Shown one piece after another: positions 3,501-63,882 of a stretch of 64,000 nt of DNA (the stretch's first letter is position 1; every line of letters starts with the position of its first letter). The translations under genes and the position numbers were made by a program. The stretch lies in NCBI GenBank assembly GCA_017551025.1, contig JAFZNG010000008.1, positions 92,364 to 156,363 on the forward strand, read 5' to 3'. Under the pieces are notes generated by a model. The model worked only from the letters and a program-made list of their open reading frames with translations, was not told the DNA's origin and did no database searches. This stretch comes from Paludibacteraceae bacterium. GTDB lineage: Bacteria > Bacteroidota > Bacteroidia > Bacteroidales > Paludibacteraceae.

Positions 3501-6145
3501 GAAGTGAAGATCGTAATATCAGATTCCGTACGAATCATCAAGGAGATTACATCTTCAATCTATCCTTTGAGCCATCGGCAAATCAAAAGGGAGGCTTTGC
3601 CGGTAAGGTTAAGTTGAGTATAACTTATCCGATTGAAGTAGGCGATTATCGTCTGGTATATACGGGAGGTTCGAAACCTCACCCGGGAAATGTGATCAAA
3701 AGACGTGCTAATGGTGAAGATATTGTTAGTATGTATGTAGCTGCAGGACAAGCTGCAGAATTAGTACTGCAACCCTGTAGCGTAGTAACGGCAGATGCTG
3801 TTACATGGACTCCTATAGCGTCGTGCTCTGCTCCATCATATGCAGATGCTGTGAACTTTGCAACGATTCTTAGTGCAGGCGGTGCGGGTGCTTATAACTT
3901 CACGATTAAGCAAGATGCGAATGGAGCCAATCCGAAGATTACCAAAGTTGAGAAATATACCGGTCCGTTCTATATCCGTACCGACTGCGTAAATAGCGAT
4001 AAGTGGAACTATTGGGATTCGAAAGACGCTCACACGATGACTTATTCGGATTACTCCACTACTTTGACTACGGATCCGTATAGCCACTACTTTGTGAAAT
4101 GGATTTCTGAATCGGATGTTATTGTTAAATTCTGCGTAGCGAATGATTACAGCGAAGCTGTTTCTGATACGCTTGATGCGGATGGTATTCTGACAGGAAC
4201 GAATGTTAAGGTAAGTGAAACAAATGTGCGCTTTATGTACAACCAAGCGACAAACGGCCTCAAGCGTGCCTATACCTATGGTCCATTAAATAATATGTAC
4301 ATGTTATTGCGTACGCCGTACGTGACGAGTGAGGATGGAACAAATGCATGGTTGTATAAGAGTTGGACAAACACTTCTACATATACTCTCTTGGGTGGTA
4401 CCAACAAATCATTGGATGATGTTGCGGTAGATACCTTGAAGTTTAATGATAATGGTAACTGGGTATATCAAGCAGATGTTTACGCTCGTCCGGGAGCTCC
4501 CATAAAGTTGACGGGATACTTTAATGGAGCTACGCAGTATTTCAAAGGAACATCCGGAACGAGTTATACAACTGACGCTCAACACCTTCTCGCAGGAAAC
4601 GGTGATCCGCAACATATGCGTATCACGTATGATTTCAAGACTAATCGTATGATGACTGCTTGGATGCCAAGTGGTAGTGAAATTACTCAACTGAGTCTCA
4701 ACGCTGATGTGATGTTGATTCGTCAACACCAAGAAGAGGGAGCGTCTATCACTATTAAAAAGGATGGAGTTAAGCCAGAGGATAATGCGTTGTCAAATGT
4801 GCAAACCGTTTATGGTGTAATTCAGTTAAACAAATCAACACTCAATGATGTAACTCTGTCTCAATACGAGCGTGACTTGTTCTGGATATCTTTCCCGTTT
4901 GATGTGCACTTGAGCGATGTATTCGGATTCGGTAACTACTATGAGCATTGGGGTATCCAATACTACGATGGTAAAGGTCGCGCAAAGAATGGTTATTGGG
5001 TTGATTCTAAGTCTAACTGGAAGTTCTTCACTCCGGGTATGCGTGATACGACAGTCTTGAAAGCTAACGAAGGATATGTGCTGGCAGTCGATTTGGATCT
5101 GCTCGGCAATGAATCTAGCGTGTGGGATAATGGCGTGACATCTATTTATCTTTACTTCCCGTCCACTACAACCTTAGGAACCATTAAGAATGCTACCAGC
5201 ACGACAGTAGACATTGACACCACAGGTTATACATGTACTATTGATAGACGTGTCAATAAAGAGGTTGCAAACACTAACCTTGATCGTCGTGTAGTAGATA
5301 GTCACTGGCATTTGATTGGTGCTCCGAGTTTTGCGGGAGCAGAACGCAGCGCAGGCACTTCATTTGATGCGCATGACGTCCCAAATATAGATCCGGCAAA
5401 TTGGGCAACAACTGATGTTCCGTTTGTTTACGATTGGGATCCTACCACAAACACACTGAGCCCAATAAAGACAGGCACAGCCACCTTTAAGGCTATGCAC
5501 TCTTATTTGACTCAGTATGGCAAAAAGACTATTACGTGGGAGAATGTCGTAGTTGCTGTGCCTGCCTCTGTAGCTGCCCGTCAGGCAAAACAACAAGACT
5601 TTGACTTGACGCTTCATATTCTGCGCGGAGCGAACTCAAACGACCAGACCTTCATCCGCTTGACGGAGAACGAGGAAGTAACGGATGACTTTGAGTTTGG
5701 CTACGACTTGTCGAAAGAGACGAATAGGTCTATCGCTAATGTTTGGACGGTAACGACAGACGGAACTCCCGCCGCGGGTAACAGTATGCCATTCGGCACT
5801 GAAACGAAGGTCGTGCCGGTTGGCGTGAAGACTCCTGCAGCCGATAGTTATACCTTCTCAATGCCGGAAGGCACGAATGGCGTAAGCGTTGTGCTCGTAG
5901 ATAATATAATGAACACGCGCACGAATCTTGGCTTGACGGATTACACCGTTTATCTGGAAGCAGGACAATTTGACGGACGCTTCTCGCTGGAGATTCCTGT
6001 AATCACGCAGACGCCGACGAATGTAGAAACGGTTACGGGTGACGGGTTACTGGTTACCGGGGCACGCAAGGTGATGATCGATGGCGTCCTGTACATCGTT
6101 AAGGACGGAGAGGTATTTGACGCTCGCGGAAATCGAGTAAAGTAA
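593..6145 (+). CDS. very large secreted protein with Listeria-Bacteroides repeats and a C-terminal sorting-like tail
   Basis: This 1850-residue protein starts with a signal peptide (residues 1-25, ending near VWG). Most of it is rich in Ser, Thr, Gly, Asn and Tyr, as in extracellular beta-structured proteins. Residues about 350-540 and 650-705 contain Listeria-Bacteroides (InlB B-type) repeats, recognisable by the GWHFNGWYT and GYRWKGWYT motifs. The last about 30 residues (MIDGVLYIVKDGEVFDARG) resemble the tails of two other secreted proteins in this window and may be a type IX secretion signal. A four-unit heptamer repeat encodes the linker just before this tail. The gene is visibly more A+T-rich than the housekeeping genes. 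Its function is unknown; surface display or adhesion is plausible. Confidence 0.85.
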   Translation: MKKTFQKSLLVLIGVLMMGVNCVWGKTITDLSYVSITGSFNSWADGGNSAWWFTPNPASGTQNYYTGTFYLPYSSSDREMRLYLGRNNNGNSNWGASMAFGGYWINDENDFNAEMGTSKGNDILKPFSSSPASGYIKLSCQFWGDYSGNSRLIINQSAVDALSLTSLDASSSSVKSGQTITMSPTGASGGSGGYSYSYGSSLGGSFDGNTFTAPYYFNSPSTTITVTMSDTHTLLSGLATTQKTKSITINRPDNMYIKTKFNDFDDWGWVTLPSNGDGTYSVTAKYRGSTGCNWSVTSGDETQYIEYTSYTKVHDAINDPLIDGDDCTFKLTPTSWTDASKVASVTITKRVAITATKVSLGTGSGTAGTPSISASGYANGKVDYNSSVTFTAPDEATGYRWKGWYTNNTGTGAAYNSNKSFTEAVTSAKTYYAIYEPIGYKITFDATTNGGAITNNGTTYAEDGSRKLSETYNTVVTGTAPTAVKDGWHFNGWYTTASVGGVKLINADGTWNTDVSTYTSSGKWVKADNITLYARYSHGINFISFTGYYNVMPGADVVGEVHFNTDAEPEGNFTLCYVLTTGGGERMFDQPNFDRSYSDGYHKVTFAAPVTPGAYTLQARLYEEANHDCATEAGALDTYTSLEFTFNVEHTNTVTVQYKCGSVEVRPSTTVQATAYSTAVSVTAPTIKGLTFTGWTLGAGVSAVSPTTTSDQTIKIHATKDSIMTANYSQSGYVYFKNTYGWDNVYFYRYNKQSYWGTSNSGDYGIGAHGNSDKWSDYCEEGPIEMEKVDGTDDLYYCKPSSTPGSTQSYVFTDKPSTEYFFGRTDDFYPINVLVLNNTAFSQSSNSAFNTTNHMIVPNKDQTPINPGGIYDGKVSYYTEYFAIPSLMDWNWTLRGDWGWSTPAAYCHFQAPTMGSTTFQAHRYFDNETGWDHYIQVYDQSGEDKGHYGVVSGAIEATTSTPTELGKQSGSEDRNIRFRTNHQGDYIFNLSFEPSANQKGGFAGKVKLSITYPIEVGDYRLVYTGGSKPHPGNVIKRRANGEDIVSMYVAAGQAAELVLQPCSVVTADAVTWTPIASCSAPSYADAVNFATILSAGGAGAYNFTIKQDANGANPKITKVEKYTGPFYIRTDCVNSDKWNYWDSKDAHTMTYSDYSTTLTTDPYSHYFVKWISESDVIVKFCVANDYSEAVSDTLDADGILTGTNVKVSETNVRFMYNQATNGLKRAYTYGPLNNMYMLLRTPYVTSEDGTNAWLYKSWTNTSTYTLLGGTNKSLDDVAVDTLKFNDNGNWVYQADVYARPGAPIKLTGYFNGATQYFKGTSGTSYTTDAQHLLAGNGDPQHMRITYDFKTNRMMTAWMPSGSEITQLSLNADVMLIRQHQEEGASITIKKDGVKPEDNALSNVQTVYGVIQLNKSTLNDVTLSQYERDLFWISFPFDVHLSDVFGFGNYYEHWGIQYYDGKGRAKNGYWVDSKSNWKFFTPGMRDTTVLKANEGYVLAVDLDLLGNESSVWDNGVTSIYLYFPSTTTLGTIKNATSTTVDIDTTGYTCTIDRRVNKEVANTNLDRRVVDSHWHLIGAPSFAGAERSAGTSFDAHDVPNIDPANWATTDVPFVYDWDPTTNTLSPIKTGTATFKAMHSYLTQYGKKTITWENVVVAVPASVAARQAKQQDFDLTLHILRGANSNDQTFIRLTENEEVTDDFEFGYDLSKETNRSIANVWTVTTDGTPAAGNSMPFGTETKVVPVGVKTPAADSYTFSMPEGTNGVSVVLVDNIMNTRTNLGLTDYTVYLEAGQFDGRFSLEIPVITQTPTNVETVTGDGLLVTGARKVMIDGVLYIVKDGEVFDARGNRVK
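6033..6060. repeat. in-frame heptamer repeat, TTACGGG family (4 units)
   Basis: Four consecutive 7-base units (TTACGGG, TGACGGG and two variants) lie inside the giant secreted gene. They encode the peptide around VTGDGLLVTG, directly before the C-terminal tail motif. Confidence 0.85.
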
Positions 6146-6146
6146 G

Positions 6147-6168
6147 GAATGAATGAGTGAACGAATGA
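6147..6168. repeat. short GAATGAGT-type tandem repeat at a gene junction
   Basis: Degenerate GAAT/GAGT/GAAC tetramers, readable as 8-base units, begin two bases after the stop codon of the giant gene and run towards the next gene. Confidence 0.55.
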
Positions 6169-6188: not shown

Positions 6189-6554
6189 ATGAAACGCATA
6201 TATATAATGATGGTACTGGGTGCGCTAATGGCGTCCCTGGTTCCCACAAATGCTCAAACATTCCAAAACCCGAATGCGCAGCAGAACCAAAACCAACAGA
6301 TAATACAAACCGGGGCACACTATACGGGGACGGTATATGAACCCTTCAGCGGCTCCGTACCGTCCGAGCAAAGTGCAGTAGGTGCCAGTTATTCACCCGC
6401 TAAAATTGGTAATCTGAGACGCGGTTTGGATACACCGGGCGATACCGGTCAATCTACCGAGTCCCCTATCGGCGATGCGGTACTGCCGCTGTTACTGATG
6501 GCAATGGTGTATGGTGGATGGTGTATAGTGTATAGGCGCAAGCGCCGTGTATAG
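6189..6554 (+). CDS. small exported membrane protein of unknown function
   Basis: I chose the ATG at 6189 because it gives a normal signal peptide (MKRIYIMMVLG to NAQ); an upstream ATG at 6153 lies in a short tandem repeat. The 121-residue product has a Gln/Asn-rich stretch after the signal, a glycine- and serine-containing middle, and one C-terminal membrane segment (LPLLLMAMVYGGWCIVY) ending in RRKRRV. It is thus anchored with a short basic cytoplasmic tail, a layout reminiscent of sorting-signal anchors. Part of the membrane segment is encoded by heptamer repeats of the GGTGTAT family. It follows the giant secreted gene by 43 bases and may be co-transcribed. I do not recognise a family. 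Confidence 0.6.
   Translation: MKRIYIMMVLGALMASLVPTNAQTFQNPNAQQNQNQQIIQTGAHYTGTVYEPFSGSVPSEQSAVGASYSPAKIGNLRRGLDTPGDTGQSTESPIGDAVLPLLLMAMVYGGWCIVYRRKRRV
6504..6531. repeat. in-frame heptamer repeat, ATGGTGT family (4 units)
   Basis: Four 7-base units (ATGGTGT, ATGGTGG, ATGGTGT, ATAGTGT) lie within the 3' end of the small membrane protein gene. They encode part of its membrane segment. Confidence 0.8.
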
Positions 6555-6659: not shown

Positions 6660-7931
6660 TTACCGGATCACTTGGCCGGTGGGGGTGTAGAGGCGGTTGC
6701 CGGATTGGATGTACAGATGGCCGTTGCGGAGGATCTTGGTAGCGGTGAGCGGTGAGCCGTTATCGGTCATCGGGATAGCCTCCGGCCAGACATGCGAATA
6801 CCAGTGACGCACCAACGAGGGATCGGGCACACGATACAGCGACCAGACACTATTCGGATTATCGCCCAAGATATAGTCATGCAACCAGACCTCTAGATTC
6901 TCTCCTCTTTGATACAGCACCCACCACTTATCACCGTCTTCGCGGGCGATGAATAGCCATGTAGAGTCAGCCAGCATACGAGCCTTCCAAGGCGAACAAT
7001 CATCCGTAAGCGTGTTGGCGGCGGCGTTATACCCCACGTAACTGTCTAAAGCTCCATAACAGCGTATCGTACACGTTGTATCCTCGAGTTGAAAATCGAG
7101 GTAATAGATGTCGGAGGTATAGATATACGCATCGTCCGAAAGCGCCATCCGTCCGCCGGAGACGATACCGCTGAGAACATAGTTGCCCAAGGCAAGCACA
7201 TAATACCCCGACTCGGGATGCGTCTGCCGCTGCCATGTAGGATAAGGCAGATCGGTCCATACCGCCCAAAGCGTGATATCCTTCTTAGGGAAATAGCGAC
7301 TATCGGCCGGCAAGAGGACGGGTTGCAAGTCCACCGGTTCGGTCAATTCGTTCTCTGCCCATCCGGCGAAATACCATTCGCCTCGATCCTCACGCATGGG
7401 CAACAGCACGCCACTACCGGGTGCCGACTCGGTGAGGGTCTCCGGCTCGTCATTCGTCATAAGCGTGACGGTATACGGTCGCAAAGCAGGCTGGGTATAT
7501 TCGATTTCGTAACGCTGGATATGCAGCGAGTTGGCCGTACCGACGAGTTGCACCGTCAGGAAGCCCTCATCGAGCGTACATGCTCCACTCCACCCGAGGG
7601 CTTGATACTCACTATTATCATACGCACCAAACCAATCCTTGTAGGTGCCCGAAAGGGTATAGAGCTGCAGGTCATCGGCCGTAATCGTGAGTTGACCGGC
7701 TCCCTTATCCTTGTTGGAACGCAGATACAGACGCACCGCCTCGATACGGATATCTTCCAGACCCGACAAACGGAGCGTAGCGGTGTCGCCCTCCCGTATG
7801 TCGCCCTTCTGGTACGAACAACTGTAAGCAGTCTGCATACCCACGGGCTGCGCACCCGAAATAGATACCGACGACTTGGTTTCCACCGTAAAAGTCATCA
7901 AAATACCAAGAAGAATCGTTACAAATGTCAT
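6660..7931 (-). CDS. secreted protein with C-terminal sorting-like tail
   Basis: The 423-residue product begins with a hydrophobic export signal (MTFVTILLGILMTF). The middle (about residues 150-230) contains a diverged Listeria-Bacteroides repeat with WYFAGWAENE and ITLWAVW. The C-terminus (ILRNGHLYIQSGNRLYTPTG) matches the tail motif found in the giant protein at 593-6145 and the LRR protein at 45936-47786. This suggests export by the same machinery, possibly type IX. The N-terminal half resembles a beta-sandwich carbohydrate-binding layout, but I cannot name a family. It is transcribed alone, divergent from the tRNA-Pro gene. Confidence 0.75.
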   Translation of the reverse strand: MTFVTILLGILMTFTVETKSSVSISGAQPVGMQTAYSCSYQKGDIREGDTATLRLSGLEDIRIEAVRLYLRSNKDKGAGQLTITADDLQLYTLSGTYKDWFGAYDNSEYQALGWSGACTLDEGFLTVQLVGTANSLHIQRYEIEYTQPALRPYTVTLMTNDEPETLTESAPGSGVLLPMREDRGEWYFAGWAENELTEPVDLQPVLLPADSRYFPKKDITLWAVWTDLPYPTWQRQTHPESGYYVLALGNYVLSGIVSGGRMALSDDAYIYTSDIYYLDFQLEDTTCTIRCYGALDSYVGYNAAANTLTDDCSPWKARMLADSTWLFIAREDGDKWWVLYQRGENLEVWLHDYILGDNPNSVWSLYRVPDPSLVRHWYSHVWPEAIPMTDNGSPLTATKILRNGHLYIQSGNRLYTPTGQVIR

Positions 7932-9635: not shown

Positions 9636-11825
9636 ATGAAAAACTGGAAAATTCTACTTATGGCAATGATTAGTTTGCTGGCTGCCGGATGTGCCGGAAA
9701 GGGCGAATGGCGCAGCACCAAAGACCAGGATAAAGCCCCGATTACCAAGCCGGAAATCACGATAGAAGGTGGCCGACTAACGGCCGAAGGCCTCTGGGCT
9801 ATGGGACGTATCGGTACGGCTGTAGCGGATCAGGAGACCGGTCGCGTGGCGTATACCGTCAGCTACTACAGCGTAGCGGAGAACCGCAGCACAACATGGA
9901 TTAGGATTTGCCAAAACGAGGCTGAAGGCTTAAAGGTGATTGATGAGTTTGTAGGTAGCGACCCGGCCTGGTACGGCAACAGCGGTGTGCTGGCTTATAT
10001 GCGCGGCGGTAAGGTCTATCTGCGTCAGGACGGCAAAGACAAAGCCATCAGCATCAGCGATGAGCGAATCAAGAACGGTGAACTAGAAGGATTTCTTATG
10101 TCGCCCGACCGCAAGAAGATCATCCTCGTACAGCAAGTAAAAACCGTAGCGTCGACCGTAGACAAATACCCCGATCTGCCGCTGGCTACGGGACATATGC
10201 ATGAGGACTTGATGTACAAGCACTGGGACGAATGGACCGAGTCCGCACCGCAACCCTTCCTGTGCGACCTGGAGGTAGAGACCGAAGGCGAGTTTGTCAG
10301 CGAAGCCCGTATTCAGAACCCGCAAAACCTGCTGGAGGGCACGAAATACGAATGCCCGATGAAGCCCTTCGGCGGTGTAGAACAACTGGCATGGAGTCCG
10401 GACAGCAAACAGATCGCCTACACCTGCCGCAAGAAGACGGGACTGGACTATGCCATCAGCACGAATAGTGATATTTATTTGGCGAAAGGCGAAAGGTTAG
10501 AGGCGAATGGTGAAGGGTCAGAGGCGAATGATATAAACCTGACGGAAGGTAATATGGGTTATGACCAGAACCCGAGTTATTCGCCCAACGGCGAGTGGAT
10601 CGCCTGGCTTTCGATGGAACGTGACGGCTATGAGAGCGACGAGAACCGCCTCATGATTCGCAACACCGCCACCGGCGAACAACGCTGGCTCACCAAGACG
10701 CTCGACAGCAACGTAGAGGAATACCTCTGGATGGACGATACGACGCTGCTCTATACGGCCGTATGGGAGGGCACGATACAACTCTATCGCGTCACACTCG
10801 ACGGCACGACGCAGAAACTGACCGAAGGACAGCACGACCTGACGCTCGCCGATGTATGCGACGGACAAGCCTACGTGCTGCGCCACTCGATGCGGGAAGC
10901 AAACGAGATATATCGGTTACCGGTTACGGGTGACGGGTTAGCAGGTGCTTCCGAGCACTCCGATAATCTCGTACAGCTTACTCACGAGAACAAGAATATC
11001 TACGACCAAGTAGAAATGGGACGCGTAGAGCCGCGTTGGCTGAAGACCACGGACGGTAAGCGGATGCTGACCTGGGTGATCTATCCCCCGCAGTTCGACT
11101 CCACCAAGACCTACCCCACCTTGCTCTACTGCGAAGGCGGACCGCAGAGTCCGGTGAGCCAGTTCTGGTCCTACCGCTGGAACTTCATGATGATGGCCGC
11201 CCACGACTATATCATCGTTGCGCCCAACCGTCGCGGCCTGCCGGGCTTCGGCAAGGAGTGGAACGAGGAGATCTCGGGTGACTACGGCGGACAATGTATG
11301 CGTGATCTGCTCGCCGCTATCGACCAGATGAAAAAAGAACCGTACGTAGATCAGGAGCGTCTCGGATGTGTCGGTGCTTCGTTCGGCGGCTACAGCGTCT
11401 ATTGGTTGGCAGGTCATCACGACGGTCGCTTCAAGGCGTTTATTGCTCACGACGGCATCTTCAACCTGGAGATGCAGTACCTGGAGACCGAAGAGAAATG
11501 GTTCGCCAACTGGGATATGGGTGGTGCATACTGGGAGAAAAACAACAAAATCGCCCAACGCACCTTCCAGAACAGTCCCCACCGCTTTGTCGATAAATGG
11601 GATACGCCGATACTCTGTATCCACGGCGAGAAAGACTATCGAATCCTGGCCAACCAGGCCATGGCAGCCTTTGATGCCGCCAAGATGCGTGGCGTACCGG
11701 CCGAATTACTCATCTTCCCCGACGAAAACCACTGGGTACTCAGTCCGCAAAACGGCATATTATGGCAACGTACGTTCTTTGAGTGGCTGGACCGTTGGCT
11801 GAAGGAGAATAAAGTTGAGAGTTGA
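9636..11825 (+). CDS. S9 family (dipeptidyl-peptidase IV-like) lipoprotein
   Basis: The 729-residue protein begins with a lipoprotein signal (lipobox LAAGC near residue 18), so it is membrane-anchored in the envelope. An N-terminal beta-propeller is followed by an alpha/beta-hydrolase domain. The catalytic serine is in GCVGASFGGYS (about residue 581), the aspartate in GEKDYRI (about 666) and the histidine in DENHWV (about 702). It would release N-terminal peptides, supporting peptide use. The ATG at 9636 gives the lipoprotein signal; an upstream in-frame start overlaps the promoter. Heptamer repeats encode two short insertions in propeller loops (about residues 282-298 and 428-436), and another supplies the stop codon. 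It is the first gene of a three-gene operon. Confidence 0.9.
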   Translation: MKNWKILLMAMISLLAAGCAGKGEWRSTKDQDKAPITKPEITIEGGRLTAEGLWAMGRIGTAVADQETGRVAYTVSYYSVAENRSTTWIRICQNEAEGLKVIDEFVGSDPAWYGNSGVLAYMRGGKVYLRQDGKDKAISISDERIKNGELEGFLMSPDRKKIILVQQVKTVASTVDKYPDLPLATGHMHEDLMYKHWDEWTESAPQPFLCDLEVETEGEFVSEARIQNPQNLLEGTKYECPMKPFGGVEQLAWSPDSKQIAYTCRKKTGLDYAISTNSDIYLAKGERLEANGEGSEANDINLTEGNMGYDQNPSYSPNGEWIAWLSMERDGYESDENRLMIRNTATGEQRWLTKTLDSNVEEYLWMDDTTLLYTAVWEGTIQLYRVTLDGTTQKLTEGQHDLTLADVCDGQAYVLRHSMREANEIYRLPVTGDGLAGASEHSDNLVQLTHENKNIYDQVEMGRVEPRWLKTTDGKRMLTWVIYPPQFDSTKTYPTLLYCEGGPQSPVSQFWSYRWNFMMMAAHDYIIVAPNRRGLPGFGKEWNEEISGDYGGQCMRDLLAAIDQMKKEPYVDQERLGCVGASFGGYSVYWLAGHHDGRFKAFIAHDGIFNLEMQYLETEEKWFANWDMGGAYWEKNNKIAQRTFQNSPHRFVDKWDTPILCIHGEKDYRILANQAMAAFDAAKMRGVPAELLIFPDENHWVLSPQNGILWQRTFFEWLDRWLKENKVES
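10481..10529. repeat. in-frame heptamer repeat, GGCGAAA family (7 units)
   Basis: Seven consecutive 7-base units (GGCGAAA, GGTTAGA, GGCGAAT, GGTGAAG and similar) keep exact register over 49 bases. They encode an AKGERLEANGEGSEAN insertion in the peptidase propeller. Confidence 0.9.
10917..10941. repeat. in-frame heptamer repeat, TTACGGG family (3 units)
   Basis: Three units (TTACCGG, TTACGGG, TGACGGG) and a partial fourth encode PVTGDGLAG inside the peptidase. The same VTGDGL peptide occurs in two unrelated genes of the window. Confidence 0.85.
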
Positions 11826-11841
11826 GAGTTGAGAGTTTAGA
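11814..11841. repeat. junction heptamer repeat, GTTGAGA family (4 units)
   Basis: Three GTTGAGA units and one GTTTAGA span the end of the peptidase gene. They supply its last codons and TGA stop, and end one base before the thioesterase start codon. Confidence 0.9.
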
Positions 11842-11842
11842 G

Positions 11843-12565
11843 ATGAAATACTACTACGAATATGAGGTAAAGTACCAGGAGGTGGATGACAAGAAGCGTC
11901 TTCGCCTGTATAACCTGGAGAACTACCTGCTAGAGGTGGCCGGTCGCGTGGCCGACGAATTGGGATTTGGTATTCAAGTGCTCCACCCGCGCGGACTGAC
12001 CTGGATACTGACGCGTTTGTCGGTAGAGATGGACTATCTGCCGACCCATAACGAGCACCTGGTCTTCGAGACCTGGATCGAGCAGAACGTACATATGCTC
12101 AGTACGCGTGACTACCGTATCTGGCTTCTGGAAGCCAACGGCGAGAAGCGACTCATAGGTCGATGCAAGTCGGTTTGGGCGGTGCTGGACATGGAGAAAC
12201 GCGAGATCGTCAATGTGTTCAACGAACCGATATTCTTGGACTCGGTGGATGGCGAGGTGCTGGAGATGGACCGCATCCGCATGACTACGATTCCGGAGCC
12301 CAGCGGACAACGCGACTACCGTATCGCCTACTCCGATCTGGACTACAACCGGCATTGCAACAGTTGCAACTACCTGCGCGTAATGCTCGACACCTACCTG
12401 CCCGACTACTACGACCGCAAGGTACGACTGGACATCAACTACCAGCGTGAGATCACTCGGGGCGAGGATATGACGACCTACTATCTGCTCACGCAGGACG
12501 GCGTACAGTATCAGCAGAAGAACCGGTACGGGGAGACCAACTGCTCAGCGAAGATTACGGTGTAG
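11843..12565 (+). CDS. acyl-ACP thioesterase
   Basis: The 240-residue protein (MKYYYEYEVKYQEVDDKKRL) has the double hot-dog layout of acyl-ACP thioesterases. One hot-dog has SVEMDYLPTHNEHLVFETWI and RLIGRCKSVWAVLDMEKRE, and the second has YRIAYSDLDYNRHCNSCNYLR with the conserved Asp/Asn/His cluster. It hydrolyses acyl-ACP to free fatty acid in the cytoplasm. The ATG at 11843 directly follows a heptamer repeat that ends the previous gene. The TAG stop lies within another heptamer repeat. It is the second gene of the peptidase operon. Confidence 0.88.
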   Translation: MKYYYEYEVKYQEVDDKKRLRLYNLENYLLEVAGRVADELGFGIQVLHPRGLTWILTRLSVEMDYLPTHNEHLVFETWIEQNVHMLSTRDYRIWLLEANGEKRLIGRCKSVWAVLDMEKREIVNVFNEPIFLDSVDGEVLEMDRIRMTTIPEPSGQRDYRIAYSDLDYNRHCNSCNYLRVMLDTYLPDYYDRKVRLDINYQREITRGEDMTTYYLLTQDGVQYQQKNRYGETNCSAKITV

Positions 12566-12593
12566 GGTGTATGGTGTATGGTGTATAGTGTAT
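12559..12593. repeat. junction heptamer repeat, GGTGTAT family (5 units)
   Basis: GGTGTAG, three GGTGTAT units and AGTGTAT run from the thioesterase stop (TAG inside the first unit) into the first possible ATG (12592) of the next gene. Confidence 0.9.
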
Positions 12594-24636: not shown

Positions 24637-24652
24637 GAGTTGAGAGTTGAGA
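24632..24652. repeat. junction heptamer repeat, GTTGAGA family (3 units)
   Basis: Three identical GTTGAGA units start inside the last codons of lgt and provide its TGA stop. They match the repeat at 11814-11841. Confidence 0.88.
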
Positions 24653-24675
24653 GAAGTCTTCTAGTTGAAAGTTTT

Positions 24676-33104: not shown

Positions 33105-33106
33105 TT

Positions 33107-40064: not shown

Positions 40065-40071
40065 GTATAAT

Positions 40072-44592: not shown

Positions 44593-44642
44593 ACACTATA
44601 CACCCTACACCATACACCATACACCATACACCATACACCATA
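44587..44642. repeat. junction heptamer repeat, CACCATA family (8 units)
   Basis: Eight units, six of them identical CACCATA, keep exact register over 56 bases between the deaminase and lipoate ligase genes. The ligase start codon lies in the first unit. This is the longest heptamer array in the window. Confidence 0.93.
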
Positions 44643-44646
44643 AAAG

Positions 44647-47786: not shown

Positions 47787-48211
47787 GATTCTTTAGGTTT
47801 TTTGAAAAAAATCAGACAGACAAAATAGTTGATACATCCGCCGATGAAGATGACCAGATAACTGATCGCATCATCGCGCCACGTAGGTAGCAGCATCAAT
47901 ATCAGCGGTAGCAGGCCAAACTGAATACCCAGGTTGATCGCCCTGGCCAGCAGAAACCCACCGGCATTCTTCAGGCTGGGCCGCGTACCGAAGGTGTACC
48001 AGTTGGAAAACAGATAATTCGGTATCATCTCCAGCACAAAACCGATACCGAAGGCAACGTAGTACAACACCAATCCCTTGGCGGGATGGTCCAACGCCCA
48101 CAAAGCACCTTCGAAAAAACCGGTCTGCACAAACATACCCGTCGTACCGATCACCGCAAAGCGAACAGCACTACGTATCTTATCCGGTAAATAACTGGTC
48201 AGCAATTTCAT
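47783..48211 (-). CDS. GtrA-like membrane protein
   Basis: The 142-residue protein has four membrane helices and the GtrA/DPMS3 pattern: AVRFAVIGTTGMFVQTGFFEGALW near the N-terminus, NYLFSNWYTFGTRPS in the centre and FIGGCINYFVCLIFFKKP at the end. GtrA proteins flip or present polyprenyl-linked sugars. The ATG at 48211 is preferred because the longer frame starts at a TTG inside a heptamer repeat. It lies between alaS and the LRR gene. Confidence 0.85.
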   Translation of the reverse strand: MKLLTSYLPDKIRSAVRFAVIGTTGMFVQTGFFEGALWALDHPAKGLVLYYVAFGIGFVLEMIPNYLFSNWYTFGTRPSLKNAGGFLLARAINLGIQFGLLPLILMLLPTWRDDAISYLVIFIGGCINYFVCLIFFKKPKES

Positions 48212-48248
48212 CCTTTCACCTTTCAATTTTCAATTTTCACCTTTCAAT
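48206..48248. repeat. junction heptamer repeat, TTTCACC/TTTCAAT family (5-6 units)
   Basis: Units TTTCACC, TTTCAAT, TTTCAAT, TTTCACC and TTTCAAT, with a looser first unit, span the alaS-gtrA junction. They contain the alaS stop codon and touch the gtrA start. Confidence 0.88.
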
Positions 48249-50936: not shown

Positions 50937-50951
50937 ATTTCGAAAAAAAAT

Positions 50952-50986
50952 AATTCGTAATTTTTAATTTTTAATTTTTAATTTCA
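50952..50986. repeat. junction heptamer repeat, AATTTTT family (5 units)
   Basis: Five units, three of them identical AATTTTT, contain the pdxA stop codon and encode its last residues (EIKN). Confidence 0.88.
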
Positions 50987-52110: not shown

Positions 52111-52138
52111 CTTATTGAATTTTCTTTTTCGATTTCCT

Positions 52139-53167: not shown

Positions 53168-53172
53168 CACCG

Positions 53173-53240: not shown

Positions 53241-53283
53241 TTTTATACCCCGTTAGACTAAAATCCACAACCCCCTACACGCC

Positions 53284-53300
53284 ACACCATACACCATACA
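53284..53300. repeat. short CACCATA heptamer repeat (2 units)
   Basis: Two CACCATA-type units directly precede the 11-base array. They are the same family as 44587-44642. Confidence 0.65.
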
Positions 53301-53302
53301 AT

Positions 53303-53368
53303 AGTAGGTTATTAGTAGGTTATTAGTAGGTGATTAGTAGGTGATTAGTAGGTTATTAGTAGGTGATA
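53303..53368. repeat. 11-base tandem repeat AGTAGGTTATT (6 units)
   Basis: Six contiguous 11-base units alternate GGTTATT and GGTGATT endings in exact register. The array lies between the putative small RNA and the glycosyltransferase promoter and encodes nothing visible. Confidence 0.92.
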
Positions 53369-54837: not shown

Positions 54838-55850
54838 TCACAGCTCCAAAAATCGAATTCGAGCAACGCGCACACACGTTCGTACTAAAGGACGTGCGTA
54901 TCGGCATCGGCTTTCATTGGGACCGACATGAAGACCAGGAGTTTCAAGGGGAATTGGAGATAATAAAGGCGAAAGGCGAATGGACAAAAGGCGAATGTTT
55001 ATATACCGCCATCAACACGCTCGACCTGGAGGACTACCTCTGCTCCGTCATCTCTTCAGAGATGAACGCCAATAGTCCGATGGAACTATTGAAAGCCCAT
55101 GCCGTGATCTCCCGCTCATGGGCGATGCGAGCCATGCAGCACCCGAACCACGAGGGCTATCATGTCTGCGCTGATGACCACTGCCAGCGCTACGAGGGTC
55201 TGCGCCGCATGAACCAGCGTGCCGTACAGGCCGTACGCGAAACAGCAGGCCAAGTACTCACAGCCAACGGCGAGATATGCGACTGCCGCTATCATAAGTG
55301 TTGCGGCGGACGCACCGAGGTATGGTCCACCTGCTGGGAAGACCGCGACGTACCATATATTCAGTCGGTAGAATGTCCCTACTGCGGCAAAGCCGCACAT
55401 CATACATCGCTCCTTCGTACAGTCCTCAACGACTACGACCAAGAGACTCGTGACTTCCACGACTGGCAAGTCCGTTACACCGCCTCAGAACTCTCGGATA
55501 TCATCCGCCGCAAATCAGGTATCGACTTCGGCGAGATAGTCGATCTGGTGCCGCTCAAACGCGGACCGTCAGGACGCATCTACGAATTGGAGATCATTGG
55601 AACGAAGCACAGACAGATCATCAGCAAAGAGCTAACCATCCGTCTCTGGCTATCAGACAGTTGTCTGTACAGCAGCTGGTTCACCATACACCATACACCC
55701 TACACCCTACACCTTCACGGCCACGGCTGGGGCCACGGTGCCGGACTATGCCAGATAGGTGCCGCACAGATGGCCGCCGAAGGATATACCTACCAACAAA
55801 TACTCGCTCACTATTATGTCGGTACAAGACTTAGCACTACAACGCGATAA
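54810..55850 (+). CDS. SpoIID/LytB domain protein
   Basis: The 346-residue protein has the SpoIID core: LDLEDYLCSVISSEMNANSPMELLKAHAVISRSWA (about residues 74-108), a cysteine-rich YHKCCGGRTEVWS stretch and the C-terminal GHGWGHGAGLCQIGAAQMA (about 305-323). SpoIID proteins are lytic transglycosylases acting on denuded peptidoglycan. No signal peptide is visible here, unusual for a wall enzyme. Two heptamer repeats encode KAKGEWTKGE (about 52-63) and HHTPYTLHLH (about 291-302), the latter right before the GHGWGHG motif. It overlaps both neighbouring genes. Confidence 0.88.
   Translation: MGALIKVGIVTAPKIEFEQRAHTFVLKDVRIGIGFHWDRHEDQEFQGELEIIKAKGEWTKGECLYTAINTLDLEDYLCSVISSEMNANSPMELLKAHAVISRSWAMRAMQHPNHEGYHVCADDHCQRYEGLRRMNQRAVQAVRETAGQVLTANGEICDCRYHKCCGGRTEVWSTCWEDRDVPYIQSVECPYCGKAAHHTSLLRTVLNDYDQETRDFHDWQVRYTASELSDIIRRKSGIDFGEIVDLVPLKRGPSGRIYELEIIGTKHRQIISKELTIRLWLSDSCLYSSWFTIHHTPYTLHLHGHGWGHGAGLCQIGAAQMAAEGYTYQQILAHYYVGTRLSTTTR
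54965..54997. repeat. in-frame heptamer repeat, AAAGGCG family
   Basis: AAAGGCG, AAAGGCG, AATGGAC and an 8-base AAAAGGCG unit encode KAKGEWTKGE in the SpoIID-like gene. Confidence 0.8.
55682..55716. repeat. in-frame heptamer repeat, CACCATA/CACCCTA family (5 units)
   Basis: Five units (two CACCATA, two CACCCTA, one CACCTTC) encode TIHHTPYTLHL in the SpoIID-like gene. They are the same family as the intergenic array at 44587-44642. Confidence 0.9.
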
Positions 55851-57012
55851 ATACCGCCACCTCACCAACGAAGAGTGGCGCTGGCTGTTGCAACAGGTCG
55901 AGGGACGCGAACGTACCGCCGACAAACTCCCCTGTTTTGCTGCCATCGACGACTGGTGGTATCCCGTGCGACTCAGTCTGGAGCAGTGTTCATCGGAACT
56001 CACCGCCCGCTATAAAGCAAGCCTGGTCGAAAGACCGCTTCGCTCAAAGTCGAAAGTCGAAAGAAGCGCTGCGGATCTGACAGCCGGTTACGGCGTAGAT
56101 ACTTGGTTTTTAAGTGAGCACTTCACGCATACCGACTACGTAGAGCAGAATGAGGAACTTTGTCGCATTGCAAAGCACAATTTTAAAATTAAAAATTCAA
56201 AATTAAAAATTCAAAATTCTTCTCTCGAAGTTCATCATTCAACTGCGGAGGAATTTCTGGAGACGGCCGGCCAGTACGACCTCATCTATCTCGATCCGGC
56301 GCGACGCGATGCGCATGGCGGCAAAGTCTTCCGCCTGGAGGACTGTACACCGAATGTCGTAACACTGCTGCCTACCCTGCTCCGCCACCTCACGCCAGAC
56401 GGACAGATCCTACTCAAACTCTCCCCCATGCTGGATATCACCCAGGCCGTCAACACATTAACCATTAGCCCTTCACCATTAACCTTCGACGTACACGTCA
56501 TAGCAGTCAAGAATGAAGTAAAGGAAGTGTTGCTTTTAAGCGGCGGAAACGGCTCCATTACCGCCATCGATCTCGCAGAACCCGACAAAGCGTTCCGCTT
56601 CACCCGCGAAGAGGAACAACTCTCCACTATCAACTCGCCAACTTCTCTCAACTCTCGACTCTCAACTCTCAACTATCTCTACGAACCCAACGCAGCAATC
56701 CTGAAAGCCGGAGCATACAAGTTGCTTGGCACCCGATTCGGATTACAAAAACTGGACACCAACACGCATCTTTACGCCTCAGACCACCTTATAGCGGATT
56801 TCCCGGGACGGGTATGGCGTATCGAGCGTACGCTCAAGGACCGCAAAGACCTGCCATCCGGCTTACACCAAGCCAACGTACTGACGCGTAATCACCCCCT
56901 CCGACCGGAGGAACTGAAGAAAAAGCTGCACCTCCGAGACGGAGGCACAGCCTTTATAATCGGTGCACGCGTAGCGGGACGACCGACGCTTTATCTCGGC
57001 TATCCGGCCTGA
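55816..57012 (+). CDS. THUMP-like class I SAM methyltransferase
   Basis: The 398-residue protein has the SAM-binding motif DLTAGYGVDTWFLSEHF (about residues 85-101), the acidic second motif in DYVEQNEELCRIA and the YDLIYLDPARRDAHGGK catalytic-type motif (about 154-170). It ends in a THUMP-like domain with LYLGYP. Relatives act on RNA; the target is not known. Four repeat-derived insertions lie at about 71-85, 124-136, 214-223 and 268-286, leaving the motifs intact. The ATG at 55816 overlaps the SpoIID gene by 35 bases. Confidence 0.85.
   Translation: MSVQDLALQRDKYRHLTNEEWRWLLQQVEGRERTADKLPCFAAIDDWWYPVRLSLEQCSSELTARYKASLVERPLRSKSKVERSAADLTAGYGVDTWFLSEHFTHTDYVEQNEELCRIAKHNFKIKNSKLKIQNSSLEVHHSTAEEFLETAGQYDLIYLDPARRDAHGGKVFRLEDCTPNVVTLLPTLLRHLTPDGQILLKLSPMLDITQAVNTLTISPSPLTFDVHVIAVKNEVKEVLLLSGGNGSITAIDLAEPDKAFRFTREEEQLSTINSPTSLNSRLSTLNYLYEPNAAILKAGAYKLLGTRFGLQKLDTNTHLYASDHLIADFPGRVWRIERTLKDRKDLPSGLHQANVLTRNHPLRPEELKKKLHLRDGGTAFIIGARVAGRPTLYLGYPA
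56028..56070. repeat. in-frame composite repeat: GACCGCTTCGCTC element plus AAAGTCG heptamers
   Basis: AAAGACCGCTTCGCTCAAAG at 56030-56049 is an exact 20-base match to the complement of 40091-40110. It is followed by AAAGTCG-type 7-base units. The stretch encodes ERPLRSKSKVERSA in the methyltransferase. Confidence 0.88.
56187..56221. repeat. in-frame heptamer repeat, AATTAAA/AATTCAA family (5 units)
   Basis: Five alternating units encode KIKNSKLKIQNSS in the methyltransferase. Confidence 0.9.
56457..56484. repeat. in-frame heptamer repeat, ATTAACC/ATTAGCC family (4 units)
   Basis: Units ATTAACC, ATTAGCC, CTTCACC and ATTAACC encode LTISPSPLT in the methyltransferase. They are related to the junction repeat at 37071-37098. 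Confidence 0.82.
56618..56673. repeat. in-frame heptamer repeat, TCTCAAC family
   Basis: Four exact-register units (TCTCAAC, TCTCGAC, TCTCAAC, TCTCAAC; 56646-56673) and looser copies before them encode NSRLSTLN. They are the complement of the GTTGAGA junction family. Confidence 0.87.
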
Positions 57013-58980: not shown

Positions 58981-60381
58981 TTATTGTTTGGCATATTCAC
59001 GATAGAACGCGGCAACAGCTTCTATGCCGCGGCGCCATACATCGAGGTCCATCGACTCGTTGGGCGAATGGATGGCATTCTGCTCCAGACCAAAGCCCAT
59101 GAGTATCGTCTTGCACCCCAGTATCTGTTCAAAGGCGGCAATAATAGGTATACTGCCTCCGCGTCGTGCCGCCAGCGGACGCTTACCAAAGGCCTCTTCA
59201 AACCCGCGTTCTGCCGCCCGGTAGGCCGGTATATCGATCGGGCACACATAGCCCTGACCACCATGCATCGGCGTGACCTCTACGCGTACGCCCGCGGGGG
59301 CAATCGAGCGTATATAATCAATGAACGCGCGCGAGATACGTTCGTGATCCTGATTAGCCACCAGTCGGCACGATACCTTGGCATAGGCCTTGCTCGGCAA
59401 CACGGTCTTGCTACCCTCACCCGTATAACCACCCCATATACCGCATATATCGAAACTCGGTCGGCAGGAATTGCGCTCCAGCGTACTATACCCCTCTTCA
59501 CCAAAGACCTCATCGATATCAATGGCTTGGTTGTACCGTTCCTGCGAGAACGGTATCTGAGCAATCATCTTGCGCTCCTCCTCCGGGATAGGCAGAACGT
59601 CGTCATAGAAACCGGGGATGGTAATGCGTCCGCGCTCGTCCACCACCTGCGCCAGCATCTCACACAGCGCATTGATCGGATTCTTGACCGCCCCGCCGAA
59701 ATGACCGGAGTGAAGATCTCTATTCGGACCGGTAACCTCTATCTGCCAATAAGCCAGACCACGCAAACCGGTAGTGATAGAAGGTGTCTCCTTACCGATC
59801 ATCGAGGTGTCGCTCACCAAGATTATATCGGCCTTGAGCAGTTCCTTATGCTCCTCCAGGAAAGCCTCCAGCGAAGGCGAACCGATTTCCTCTTCGCCCT
59901 CGAAGATAAACTTCACATTGCAGTTCATCAGGCCCTCTCGCACCATATACTCGAAGGCCTTGGCCTGGATCATCGCCTGCCCCTTGTCATCATCCGCACC
60001 GCGGGCATACAATCTTCCGTCACGCACACACGCTTCCCACGGATCGGACTTCCACTCCTCCAGCGGCTCTACGGGCATAACGTCGTAATGCGCATACACC
60101 AAGACCGTTTTGATTGGTAATTGGTCGTTGGTAATTGGTGGTAGGTATTCGCCATACACGAACGGATTGCCCGTTACCCGTAACCCGTCACCCGTAACCG
60201 CCGGAATCACTTCCGCCTTCTGGCAACCGGCCTCAAGCAACAGTTCACGCCAACGCTCGGCACAGCGCAACATATCTTCTTTATGCTCGGGTTGACAACT
60301 CACACTGGGGATGCGGAGCAACGATGACCACTCCTCGAAAAAACGCGACTCATGCGCCTGGATATATTCACGGATAGACAT
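58981..60381 (-). CDS. M20 family metallodipeptidase
   Basis: The 466-residue cytoplasmic peptidase has VLVYAHYDVMPVEP with the metal His and catalytic Asp (about 91-104), GADDDKGQAM (about 129-138), FIFEGEEEIGSPSLEAFLEEH with the catalytic glutamate pair and HSGHFGGAVKNP. The last metal ligand lies near GLEQNAIHSPNESM. It cleaves dipeptides. Two repeat-derived insertions, VTGDGLRVTG (about 62-71) and PPITNDQLPI (about 79-90), sit just before the first metal motif. It has its own promoter, divergent from the amylase operon. Confidence 0.92.
   Translation of the reverse strand: MSIREYIQAHESRFFEEWSSLLRIPSVSCQPEHKEDMLRCAERWRELLLEAGCQKAEVIPAVTGDGLRVTGNPFVYGEYLPPITNDQLPIKTVLVYAHYDVMPVEPLEEWKSDPWEACVRDGRLYARGADDDKGQAMIQAKAFEYMVREGLMNCNVKFIFEGEEEIGSPSLEAFLEEHKELLKADIILVSDTSMIGKETPSITTGLRGLAYWQIEVTGPNRDLHSGHFGGAVKNPINALCEMLAQVVDERGRITIPGFYDDVLPIPEEERKMIAQIPFSQERYNQAIDIDEVFGEEGYSTLERNSCRPSFDICGIWGGYTGEGSKTVLPSKAYAKVSCRLVANQDHERISRAFIDYIRSIAPAGVRVEVTPMHGGQGYVCPIDIPAYRAAERGFEEAFGKRPLAARRGGSIPIIAAFEQILGCKTILMGFGLEQNAIHSPNESMDLDVWRRGIEAVAAFYREYAKQ
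60112..60145. repeat. in-frame repeat, GATTGGT/AATTGGT family
   Basis: TTGGT-containing units with 6-, 7- and 8-base spacing encode PPITNDQLPI in the M20 dipeptidase. They are related to the GGTGATT array in the WecE-like gene. Confidence 0.75.
60170..60197. repeat. in-frame heptamer repeat, CCCGTAA family (4 units)
   Basis: CCCGTTA, CCCGTAA, CCCGTCA and CCCGTAA encode VTGDGLRVTG in the M20 dipeptidase. They are the complement of the TTACGGG family at 6033 and 10917. Confidence 0.9.
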
Positions 60382-62514: not shown

Positions 62515-63837
62515 ATGAAAAAATTACTGCTTACCTTGGCGTTGCTGAGTGCGACGCTTGTATGGGCGCAAGAAGCGTCCCACCCTCAGTGGGCATATGA
62601 TGCCACGATCTACGAACTCAACACCCGTCAACTGACACCGGAAGGCACCTTCCGTGCCGCCGAAGCGGTCCTGCCTACCCTCAAGGAGAATGGCATCGAT
62701 ATCATCTGGGTGATGCCCTGCCAACCGATCGGTAAGATCACCCGCAAGGGTACGCTGGGTAGCTACTACTCGATCATCGACTACTGCCAGATCAATCCGG
62801 AGTTCGGTACACTGGACGACTTCAAACACTTCCTCCAGAAAGCCCACGAACTGGGCTTCAAGGTGATCCTGGATTGGGTGGCCAACCATACCGCACCGGA
62901 TAGCAAATGGACCGAAAACCCGGGTTGGCACTACCGCGACAGTCTGGGCAACCTGATGGTTCAATACGACTGGACAGATATCTCCAAACTCGATTACCAC
63001 AACCAGGACATGCGCCAAGCCATGCTCCAAGCTATGCGCTGGTGGATGGACGAAGTAGGTATCGACGGTTTCCGCTGCGACGTAGCAGGCGAGGTGCCGA
63101 CCGACTTCTGGAACTGGGCCATGAGCGACCTGCGTCGCAACCATCCGGATATGTTCACCCTGGCCGAGGACGAGGATAAAGCACAAGAACTGACCGAGAC
63201 GGCCTTCGACATGTACTACGGCTGGACACTCCATCATATCATGAACGAGGTGGCACAGGGCAAGAAGACCGTAGCCGACCTCTGGGCGTATTTCCGTAAG
63301 GCAGAGCAACTCCGTCCGCGTGCTATCCGTATGAACTTCATCACCAACCACGACGAGAACTCGTGGAACGGTACGGCCTTCGAGCGTATGGGCGATGCCG
63401 TCAAACTGATGGCGGCTTTCTGCTATGTAGTGCCGGGTATGCCGATGATCTATACGGGTCAGTTGGTAGGTAACCACCACCGTCTGGAGTTCTTCGAGAA
63501 AGACCTTATCGACCACGACGAGAACTATGCCTTAGGTGCGCTCTACCAGCGCATGAACCAGTTGCGTCAGGACAACCCCGCCCTGCAGAGCAACGAACTG
63601 GGTGCACCGATGAAGCGTCTGCCTGTTGACAACGACTATATCTTCGCCATGGTTCGTCCGTCGAAGAAGAATACCGTGCTGGTTGTCATGAACATGTCAG
63701 CCGAACCGCAAACCGTCACCATCGACCTGACCGGTTACGAGGGCAAGTATGAGTGTCTGTGCGGCCATAAGCACAAACTCTCAAACCATGAGACACTAAC
63801 CCTGCGTCCGTGGCAGTACAAGATACTGAGAAAATAG
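62515..63837 (+). CDS. exported GH13 alpha-glucan-degrading enzyme
   Basis: The 440-residue protein starts with a signal peptide (MKKLLLTLALLSATLVWA) and no lipobox, so it is periplasmic. GH13 motifs are VILDWVANHTA (about 118-128), the nucleophile Asp in GFRCDVAG (188), the acid Glu in LAEDED (218) and the stabilising Asp in NHDENSW (280). It ends in a short C-terminal beta domain. It would cut oligosaccharides produced by the preceding lipoprotein amylase. A repeat-rich stretch and a terminator follow. Confidence 0.92.
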   Translation: MKKLLLTLALLSATLVWAQEASHPQWAYDATIYELNTRQLTPEGTFRAAEAVLPTLKENGIDIIWVMPCQPIGKITRKGTLGSYYSIIDYCQINPEFGTLDDFKHFLQKAHELGFKVILDWVANHTAPDSKWTENPGWHYRDSLGNLMVQYDWTDISKLDYHNQDMRQAMLQAMRWWMDEVGIDGFRCDVAGEVPTDFWNWAMSDLRRNHPDMFTLAEDEDKAQELTETAFDMYYGWTLHHIMNEVAQGKKTVADLWAYFRKAEQLRPRAIRMNFITNHDENSWNGTAFERMGDAVKLMAAFCYVVPGMPMIYTGQLVGNHHRLEFFEKDLIDHDENYALGALYQRMNQLRQDNPALQSNELGAPMKRLPVDNDYIFAMVRPSKKNTVLVVMNMSAEPQTVTIDLTGYEGKYECLCGHKHKLSNHETLTLRPWQYKILRK

Positions 63838-63842
63838 ATAAT

Positions 63843-63882
63843 AGTCGAAAGATAAAAGTCGAAAGAGCGCTGCGCTCAAAGA
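63843..63882. repeat. AAAGTCG-type repeat with GAGCGCTGCGCTC palindrome
   Basis: Two GTCGAAAG copies flank an ATAAAA segment and run into AAAGAGCGCTGCGCTCAAAG, a hairpin-forming relative of the element at 40091 and 56030. Confidence 0.75.

Follow-up and report, generated by a model that had tools for sequence, protein, structure and literature searches.

Background

Short tandemly repeated repetitive (STRR) sequences of cyanobacteria consist of tandem heptamers. The SDR elements of Nostoc punctiforme, attributed to Elhai et al. 2008, are said to be very small hairpin repeats that are often embedded in tandem heptamers. Here we report on dispersed tandem arrays of 7-base units, and on a hairpin micro-element that accompanies some of them, in a 64,000-nucleotide stretch of DNA (hereafter "the window") from a Paludibacteraceae bacterium (assembly GCA_017551025.1, contig JAFZNG010000008.1, positions 92,364 to 156,363 of the forward strand), in the remainder of this genome and in its relatives.

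Elhai et al. 2008 is cited in PMC3116915. In most genomes, long simple repeats reportedly belong to the heptanucleotide class more often than to any other (PMC4679880, PMC4692102, after Mrazek et al. 2007), and both papers name one hypothesis for 7-nt units, polymerase contact length. Three tandem heptanucleotides are noted for Calothrix PCC7601 in PMC4692102, which stated that detailed literature on heptameric repeats was lacking at the time. A preliminary description of the window had named no counterpart in Bacteroidota; this does not hold, as TAACTGA heptamer repeats have been reported in five Bacteroidetes (PMC4679880). A literature survey by titles and abstracts, with few subscription papers covered, found no description of the present arrays and none of tandem repeats in Paludibacteraceae.

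Excess of 7-base tandem arrays in the source genome and its genus

The source genome (G000; 1,937,726 bases in 36 contigs, 95% complete) belongs to an uncultured gut bacterium of the Bacteroidales. The 80 closest relatives of one of its proteins carry titles such as "Paludibacteraceae bacterium" or "uncultured Bacteroidales bacterium", many of them from rumen compartments or faeces (ruminants, deer, horses). The source-genome sample comprised the window and 20 further stretches (464 kb in total), and 100 kb were sampled from each of the other genus genomes. Runs were counted as consecutive matching bases at each lag, with Markov shuffles as controls (order-3 in the 464-kb sample).

In the window, Tandem Repeats Finder (TRF) with a score of at least 30 returned 60 rows, 32 of them with period 7, and a purpose-made detector found 35 period-7 arrays, 34 of which were at least 21 bp long; arrays of at least 3 units numbered 0-2 at each of lags 5, 6, 8, 9, 10 and 11. 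Lag 7 showed 23 runs with at least 9 matches, as compared to 0-3 such runs at lags outside the multiples of 7, apart from lags 15 and 30 with 5 each, and none of 10 Markov shuffles of the window exceeded 1 run at lag 7 or 2 runs at any lag. This dominance of lag 7 bears out the proposal, made in the preliminary description, of a mostly exact 7-base unit with differing sequence. The constancy of the period that was also proposed stands in part only; lag 7 dominates, but the window has minority arrays with period 8, 9 or 11 (at 23684, 50891, 52137 and 53302; TRF).

The excess extends past the window, where a whole-genome check had been proposed: at lag 7, the 464-kb sample contained 149 runs with 9 or more matches, 94 of which reached 12 or more, as compared to at most 19 and at most 4, respectively, at lags that are not multiples of 7, and 1 and 0, respectively, at lag 7 in the Markov control. 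A laxer detector without length filter gave a smaller contrast in the 464 kb, with counts of 204 at lag 7 and of 74, 43 and 28 at lags 9, 8 and 6, respectively. Among nine genus genomes, the density of lag-7 runs with 10 or more matches was 29.3 per 100 kb in the source and 12, 11, 9, 9, 7, 1, 0 and 0 in the others, i.e., an excess was found in 6 of the 9 sampled genomes, source included. Genome G043 had no such runs in 100 kb; G045 had none either, yet showed 9 runs at lag 11. Across 80 related loci (1.36 Mb), 158 lag-7 runs were present in 56 of the 80 loci, and the runner-up among lags that are not multiples of 7 was lag 11 (59 runs). Sixteen order-level relatives (259 kb) showed no lag-7 excess, their 5 lag-7 runs not being above lag 23. 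The counts for the nine genomes and the order-level relatives therefore indicate that the lag-7 excess is a mark of the genus and is variable within it.

When rotations and both strands were merged, the 149 lag-7 runs counted above represented 43 heptamer classes (AAAAATT with 51 runs, ACACCAT with 9, ACACCCT with 8, AACTCTC with 7, AAAGTCG with 6, and others). Considering runs of at least 10 in this sample, period 7 was represented by 41 families, and periods 8, 9 and 11 by 9, 11 and 8 families, respectively, a few of which also had more than one run. All nine families named in the preliminary description could be read in the window, as could the 8-unit array at 44587-44642 and the 7-unit array at 10481-10529, and the families occur in both orientations (three units of AATTAAA are found 23 times forward and 21 times reverse in the whole source genome). 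A three-unit ACTCTCA pattern matched 6 times at 5 places in the source genome and had no match in 295 other genomes sampled from the phylum, none of which belongs to the genus; within the genus, this class had 2 runs in G007. For these AATTAAA and ACTCTCA patterns a reversed-pattern control is invalid, as the reversed unit is the identical unit or a rotation of it.

An 11-base array carries the identical variant pair TAGTAGGTTAT/TAGTAGGTGAT at 53302-53367 of the window and at 4901-4947 of a related locus (L007); dispersal therefore reaches beyond period 7. Two period-9 arrays with similar units (ATTCAGATT and CTCAGATTA) are located in neighbouring gaps (50891-50939 and 52137-52184).

Sharing of ordered array segments between loci

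Under independent slippage, the order of variant units would not be expected to be shared between loci. We thus compared 170 source-genome arrays of at least 24 bp against a control in which units were shuffled within arrays (100 shuffles). Pairs of arrays with a common ordered imperfect 18-mer numbered 484, as compared to 270 +/- 31 (maximum 342) in the shuffled data; among the 101 arrays with more than 25% G+C, 93 pairs shared such segments, as compared to 46.6 +/- 7 (maximum 69). Sharing pairs exceeded all 100 shuffles in every setting, although for 15-mers with two mismatches the margin was a single pair (188, as compared to a shuffled maximum of 187). The 19-mer GGTTACGGGTGACGGGTTA was found in five predicted genes with different surroundings, where it reads VTGDGL in each.

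Families were also compared within and between 43 other genomes with at least 2 arrays, excluding the source genome and AAAAATT, merging runs less than 60 bp apart and dropping five loci that duplicate sampled genomes. Family identity was observed for 23 of 464 pairs within genomes and for 162 of 16741 pairs between genomes, and 500 label shuffles gave a mean of 5.1 and a maximum of 13 for the within-genome number. The ordered variant segments common to different loci and the greater likeness of families within genomes agree with the earlier suggestion of one common process, and the sequence patterns do not fit independent slippage of chance seeds as the sole process.

Turnover of arrays between related species

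The related loci compared here come from different species. Fifteen pairs with 85-96% nucleotide identity were examined, no locus entering more than one pair, and 11 of these pairs contributed 57 array sites. Of the sites, 23 were conserved, 2 showed copy or point differences within one family, 1 had a related and 3 another heptamer, and 28 were one-sided, a class that was set by a strict rule and in which several sites, when read, hold other arrays. Thus, 34 of the 57 sites were not conserved between related loci, and such changes between related species fit the common process proposed earlier.

Differences between related arrays tended to recur at the distance of one unit. In 32 ungapped array segments from 17 pairs with at least 80% identity (segments with less than 50% identity were dropped), a difference was repeated at lag 7 in 19 of 91 cases and at lag 14 in 11 of 64, as compared to 0-4% at other lags and approx. 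1% at lag 7 outside arrays (lag 7 versus the remaining lags between 2 and 13, P approx. 7 × 10-11, Fisher test; the cases are non-independent). As the segments are ungapped, these concerted unit changes occur without a change in length. Individual arrays differing by 7, 14 and 21 nt between related loci were also observed. Taken together with the indel spectrum given below, the turnover and concerted-change results make replacement and concerted change clearer than simple copy-number change; copy-number change as the chief mode is unsupported, as the indel spectrum has no peak at 7.

Arrays in conserved protein-coding genes

The occurrence of arrays within conserved genes, in some cases together with a hairpin, goes beyond the preliminary description. 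One such site is a loop of alanyl-tRNA synthetase, defined here as the segment from GDTG to DTK and assumed to lie on the protein surface, which was read in 68 sequences, source included. Among the 49 loops long enough to be testable, 19 were periodic at lag 7, representing 13 heptamer classes (some of them one base apart), while one loop each was periodic at lags 6 and 12. Synonymous-codon shuffles that kept the protein gave a mean of 1.7 and a maximum of 5 lag-7 periodic loops, and this control ruled out constraint on the protein as the source of the periodicity. Some of the 19 periodic loops are closely related (L104 and L108; L069 and L094). Exactly 36 nt were found in 32 loops, including 12 of the 19 periodic ones, in 9 classes. 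The source loop is not among the 19 because a hairpin interrupts its array.

A similar picture was found for loops of M20 peptidase (readable in 21 of 30 loci) and of the PG_1098-like protein (29 or 30 of 30): depending on the locus, a given site is short and plain or is filled with heptamers, with REP-like palindromes facing either way or with other repeats. In-frame palindromes of the REP-like kind, CCTACCCCGTCCCTCCCTAAAGGGAGGGG among them, occur in protein loops in both orientations (L203, L206, L211, L217 and L221), and a longer repeat around CTGTCAGCGAAGCGGT fills the corresponding loops of other species (L211, L213, L214, L218 and L229).

Hairpin micro-element and candidate enzymes

The array in the alanyl-tRNA synthetase gene of the source genome is interrupted by the hairpin TTCTTATCCCGAGGGAACGATTATTTC and, by reading, re-enters register past a 24-nt insert. 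The hairpin pattern showed 33 matches in 3.03 Mb of partly overlapping DNA and none in the reversed control. One likely coding chance match and one duplicate place were dropped, and the remaining 31 sequences were aligned. The outer pair was G-C in 17 and U-A in 14 sequences and was unpaired in none of the 31, while two inner pairs were unpaired in 10 and 17 of 31, respectively. The six pairs were formed in 81.6% of cases, as compared to 66.2% in shuffled data. Cells formed, cells changed on both sides and the covariation score were above all 500 shuffles, whereas the other two of the five measures (pairs with changes on both sides, and further pair types) were not.

Hairpins were located within 25 bp of an array at 12 of 28 places (adjacent copies being counted once), as compared to 9.4% of random gap positions (P approx. 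3 × 10-6, binomial test), and at three places two adjacent copies are joined at TTC. A strict hairpin pattern matched 9 times in the source genome and once each in 2 of 148 other genomes of the order, in both of which the outer pair was unpaired. A covariance model of the hairpin, which is too short for whole-genome scoring, gave 10 matches in the source sample (E-values 0.012 to 4.5). Rfam at the gathering threshold gave two matches in the window, neither of them at the hairpin. The small RNA FopS (BTncRNA_FopS) exceeds its Rfam gathering score at 53172-53244. AAAGTCG arrays at 56022-56066 and 63836-63880 adjoin the palindromic GAGCGCTGCGCTC or CGCTTCGCTC, perhaps a second array-associated hairpin.

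The source genome has a Y1_Tnp-like match in a 256-aa open frame (G000:C4:18736-19086; L233). Matches to Y1_Tnp were found in 22 of 61 (incomplete) genomes, source included, 18 of them over the cut-off, and the strongest was in G043; among array-bearing genomes, G002, G017 and G076 had no match, and G046 and G007 had matches below the cut-off only. In the nine sampled genomes, the presence of Y1_Tnp did not track array density. Loss of mismatch repair was ruled out, with MutS1 matches in 60 of the 61 genomes including the source (56 over the curated cut-off). A reverse-transcriptase route was unsupported, as the source had no match; 15 of the 61 genomes had one, and in the source one could have been missed because the genome is 95% complete.

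Genomic context

Genes were predicted by a simple hexamer method, and gene starts and small genes are therefore uncertain. In the window (Table 1), predicted genes contain 18 of the 34 arrays that are 21 bp or longer, and the last unit of the array at 44587-44642 provides the start codon of the open reading frame 43966-44592. In the source sample, 198 arrays of at least 21 bp comprised 83 in predicted genes (45 nt or more from both gene ends), 96 in co-directional, 8 in divergent and 8 in convergent gaps, and 3 elsewhere. Per kb, arrays were scarcer in divergent gaps (8 in 9.0 kb) than in co-directional gaps (96 in 28.7 kb); per gap, they were about even (8 for 25 and 96 for 281 gaps, respectively). 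In co-directional gaps, arrays of the AATTAAA family were sense in 22 and antisense in 20 cases. Pfam names of array-bearing genes included alanyl-tRNA synthetase, S9 peptidase, DegT-type aminotransferase, glycosyltransferase, SpoIID domain, PG_1098 ferredoxin-like domain and M20 peptidase. The words TTTTTCGTACCTTTG and TTTTTTGTAATTTTG (window positions 7974, 9599, 15253, 22754 and 53452, and other loci) resemble Bacteroidota promoter sequence.

Table 1. Tandem arrays and associated features of the window; genes are predicted.
Feature	Position	Strand	Context
Array GGTTACG/GGTGACG	6031..6060	+	in gene 1625-6145; encodes VTGDGLLVTG
Array ATGGTGT	6504..6535	+	close to 3' end of gene 6207-6554
Array GGTGAGC	6738..6764	+	in gene 6660-7898 (-)
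Degenerate 7-unit array GGCGAAA	10481..10530	+	in-frame in S9 peptidase gene 9660-11825
Array GGTTACG	10911..10940	+	in S9 peptidase gene 9660-11825; GGTTACGGGTGACGGGTTA common to 6031 and 60181
Array AGTTGAG	11811..11846	+	gene junction
Array GGTGTAT	12556..12593	+	junction preceding gene 12592-13086
Array AATTAAA/AATTCAA	17691..17734	+	gap separating two minus-strand genes
Array AGTTGAG	24629..24656	+	gene junction
Array AATTAAA	25602..25626	+	gene junction
Array AATTAAA/AATTCAA	31711..31750	+	gap
Array ATTTACA	33076..33109	+	gap
Array ATTTGAG/ATTGGAG	34813..34851	+	in gene 33665-35263 (-)
Array TGGTGAT	35887..35919	+	in-frame in DegT/DnrJ aminotransferase gene 35253-36377 (-)
Array TTTCGCC/ATTAACC	37074..37094	+	gap
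Array CTTTAGC	39594..39618	+	gene junction
Array TTTTGTC	40071..40094	+	gap
8-unit array ATGGTGT	44587..44644	-	gap between amidohydrolase and lipoate ligase genes
Array TTTCACC/TTTCAAT	48203..48249	+	gap
Alanyl-tRNA synthetase gene	48244..50883	-	one 22-residue segment is array plus hairpin
Array AATTAAA/AATTCAA	49297..49354	-	in alanyl-tRNA synthetase gene, interrupted by hairpin
Hairpin micro-element TTCTTATCCCGAGGGAACGATTATTTC	49310..49336	-	in alanyl-tRNA synthetase array
Array AATTAAA (plus strand TAATTTT)	50951..50984	-	gap
Array ACACCAT	53277..53303	+	adjoins 11-base array
Array AATTAAA	53682..53703	+	in glycosyltransferase gene 53491-54837
Array AATTAAA	54261..54292	+	in glycosyltransferase gene 53491-54837
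Array AAAGGCG	54965..54995	+	in SpoIID-domain gene 54810-55850
Array ACACCAT/ACACCCT	55680..55715	+	in SpoIID-domain gene 54810-55850
Array AAAGTCG	56042..56066	+	in PG_1098-like gene 55816-57012, loop 1
Array AATTAAA/AATTCAA	56179..56219	+	in PG_1098-like gene 55816-57012, loop 2
Array CTCTCAA	56642..56677	+	in PG_1098-like gene 55816-57012, loop 3
Array TTGGTAA	60111..60147	+	in M20 peptidase gene 58981-60381 (-)
Array CCCGTAA (minus strand GGTTACG)	60167..60199	+	in M20 peptidase gene 58981-60381 (-); encodes VTGDGLRVTG
Array AAAGTCG/AAAGATA (TRF period 14)	63836..63866	+	followed by palindrome GAGCGCTGCGCTC

Origin and maintenance of the arrays

What the statistics of the sequences demonstrate is a 7-base unit, multi-unit segments common to loci of one genome, and joint change of units at fixed length. 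We hypothesize, at about even chances, that the arrays are mostly neutral and that template switching or gene conversion accounts for their copying. They would represent fast-turning DNA at sites that tolerate change, i.e., intergenic gaps and variable protein segments; during replication or repair, one of these two processes would copy short arrays into other arrays, and neighbouring units would become homogenised when strands misalign by one unit. The preference for 7 bases may be set at the birth or maintenance of arrays (e.g., by polymerase contact length) and not at the copying step, because the rarer period-8, -9 and -11 families also occur at more than one place. The hairpin micro-elements and REP-like palindromes may exploit the same tolerant sites. 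Copying and homogenisation would explain the sharing of segments, the within-genome families, the differing heptamers at fixed length and the lack of orientation.

Several observations weigh against this hypothesis. The 325 indels in overlapping loci of pairs with at least 88% identity did not peak at 7 nt (17, 8, 7 and 12 indels of 6, 7, 8 and 9 nt, respectively) and showed at best a slight peak at 14 nt (5, 7 and 3 indels of 13, 14 and 15 nt, respectively), and the eight filled-versus-empty sites represent replacement without clean boundaries or target duplications. In the sharing analysis, 15-mers with two mismatches yielded fewer distinct shared words than the shuffled mean (134 and 155, respectively), and a share of the sharing could be due to composition or peptide preference. 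Avoidance of promoters by arrays is not demonstrated, because the counts per gap are about even. Copying was inferred from pattern and not watched, the comparisons are between species and not strains, and copying leaves both the 7-base step and the differences in density among congeners unexplained.

Replication slippage that acts on each locus independently, the polymerase dictating a 7-nt step (a proposal credited to Mrazek et al. 2007 in PMC4679880), would predict a period-7 excess across many taxa, and single array differences of 7, 14 and 21 nt between related loci were observed; however, it does not predict ordered variants common to several loci, within-genome families, a 19-mer in five genes or an essential gene in which heptamers differ at constant length, and the indels have no peak at 7. 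We consider it distinctly unlikely, and it is disfavoured as the sole process. Mobile-element machinery acting on the hairpins (REP/RAYT-like or SDR-like), with the heptamers as passengers or preferred targets, also appears unlikely. The covarying hairpin near arrays at 12 of the 28 places, the three pairs of copies joined at TTC and the REP-like palindromes in corresponding protein loops of other species are consistent with such machinery, but most arrays have no hairpin, 16 of the 28 hairpins have no nearby array, the Y1_Tnp-like gene matches most strongly in a genome without lag-7 runs (G043) and has no match in three array-bearing genomes, and the source has no reverse transcriptase match.

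A putative enzyme dedicated to writing heptamer arrays could account for the strict period over 41 source families, for differing heptamers and concerted change at constant length, and for presence or absence among congeners. We regard it as very unlikely, given that no gene for arrays was found, that period-8, -9 and -11 families exist and that G045 has lag-11 but no lag-7 runs. It is highly improbable that the arrays are functional regulatory sites (for translation, termination or phase variation), even though some are placed exactly at start codons (44587-44642) and a regulatory role has been suggested in Beggiatoaceae for TAACTGA repeats located 5' of starts (PMC4679880); this low grading follows from the balanced orientation of AATTAAA, the many arrays (83 of 198) within predicted genes, and the other sequence or missing array at the corresponding site in related species. 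A bolder reading, in which an unrecognised DNA process in this genus writes 7-base arrays, copies segments between loci and rewrites segments with a new heptamer in each lineage, even in an essential gene at fixed length, seems rather unlikely; if it were true, the hairpin would be among the smallest known self-spreading sequences outside cyanobacteria.

The genus provides both array-rich species and congeners without an excess (G043 and G045 as compared to G000, G002 and G017), i.e., a natural contrast for the cause; the heptamer can be traced at conserved sites over dozens of species, and the in-gene case permits a control for protein constraint. The birth, copying and homogenisation of heptamer arrays are therefore measurable, and the puzzle of the bacterial preference for 7 bases becomes easier to test. 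For annotators, recurrent peptides such as VTGDGL in unlike proteins can represent DNA-level repeats and not domains.

Comparison with known systems

Like STRR sequences, the present arrays are tandem heptamers of several families, dispersed in many copies. They differ from STRR sequences, as described, in the Bacteroidales host, the 41 heptamer families in the sample, the many in-frame arrays within genes and the differing arrays at orthologous sites. The hairpin resembles the SDR elements, as these are reportedly constituted, in being a small dispersed element with a compensatory stem near heptamer arrays (12 of 28 places), although in another phylum.

The TAACTGA repeats (MacGregor 2015, PMC4679880) are likewise heptamer arrays with a sporadic distribution that includes five Bacteroidetes; they are described, however, as a single heptamer that in the main species is mostly located just 5' of start codons, whereas dozens of heptamers in both orientations, also invading genes, are found here. 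The class of the TAACTGA unit (AACTGAT) is absent from the 43 classes of runs of at least 9 in the 464-kb source sample, and placement of the Maribeggiatoa type (forward, just 5' of starts) was not observed, with AATTAAA at 22 sense and 20 antisense and 83 of 198 arrays in genes. With the long 7-nt simple repeats (Mrazek et al. 2007, via PMC4679880 and PMC4692102), the arrays have in common runs beyond chance (94, as compared to 0 in the Markov control), but they are degenerate and show sharing between loci and concerted unit change. REP/REPIN sequences with RAYT transposases (PMC3116915) are similar to the hairpin as short palindromic dispersed repeats; the array-bearing genomes, which are incomplete, show no consistent Y1_Tnp match, and the aligned hairpin lacks GTAG and CGTC, the tags in the title of PMC3733652. 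Overall, heptamer repeats as such are already known, whereas the form found here, with multiple families, invasion of genes, change between species, sharing between loci and an accompanying hairpin, appears to be new.

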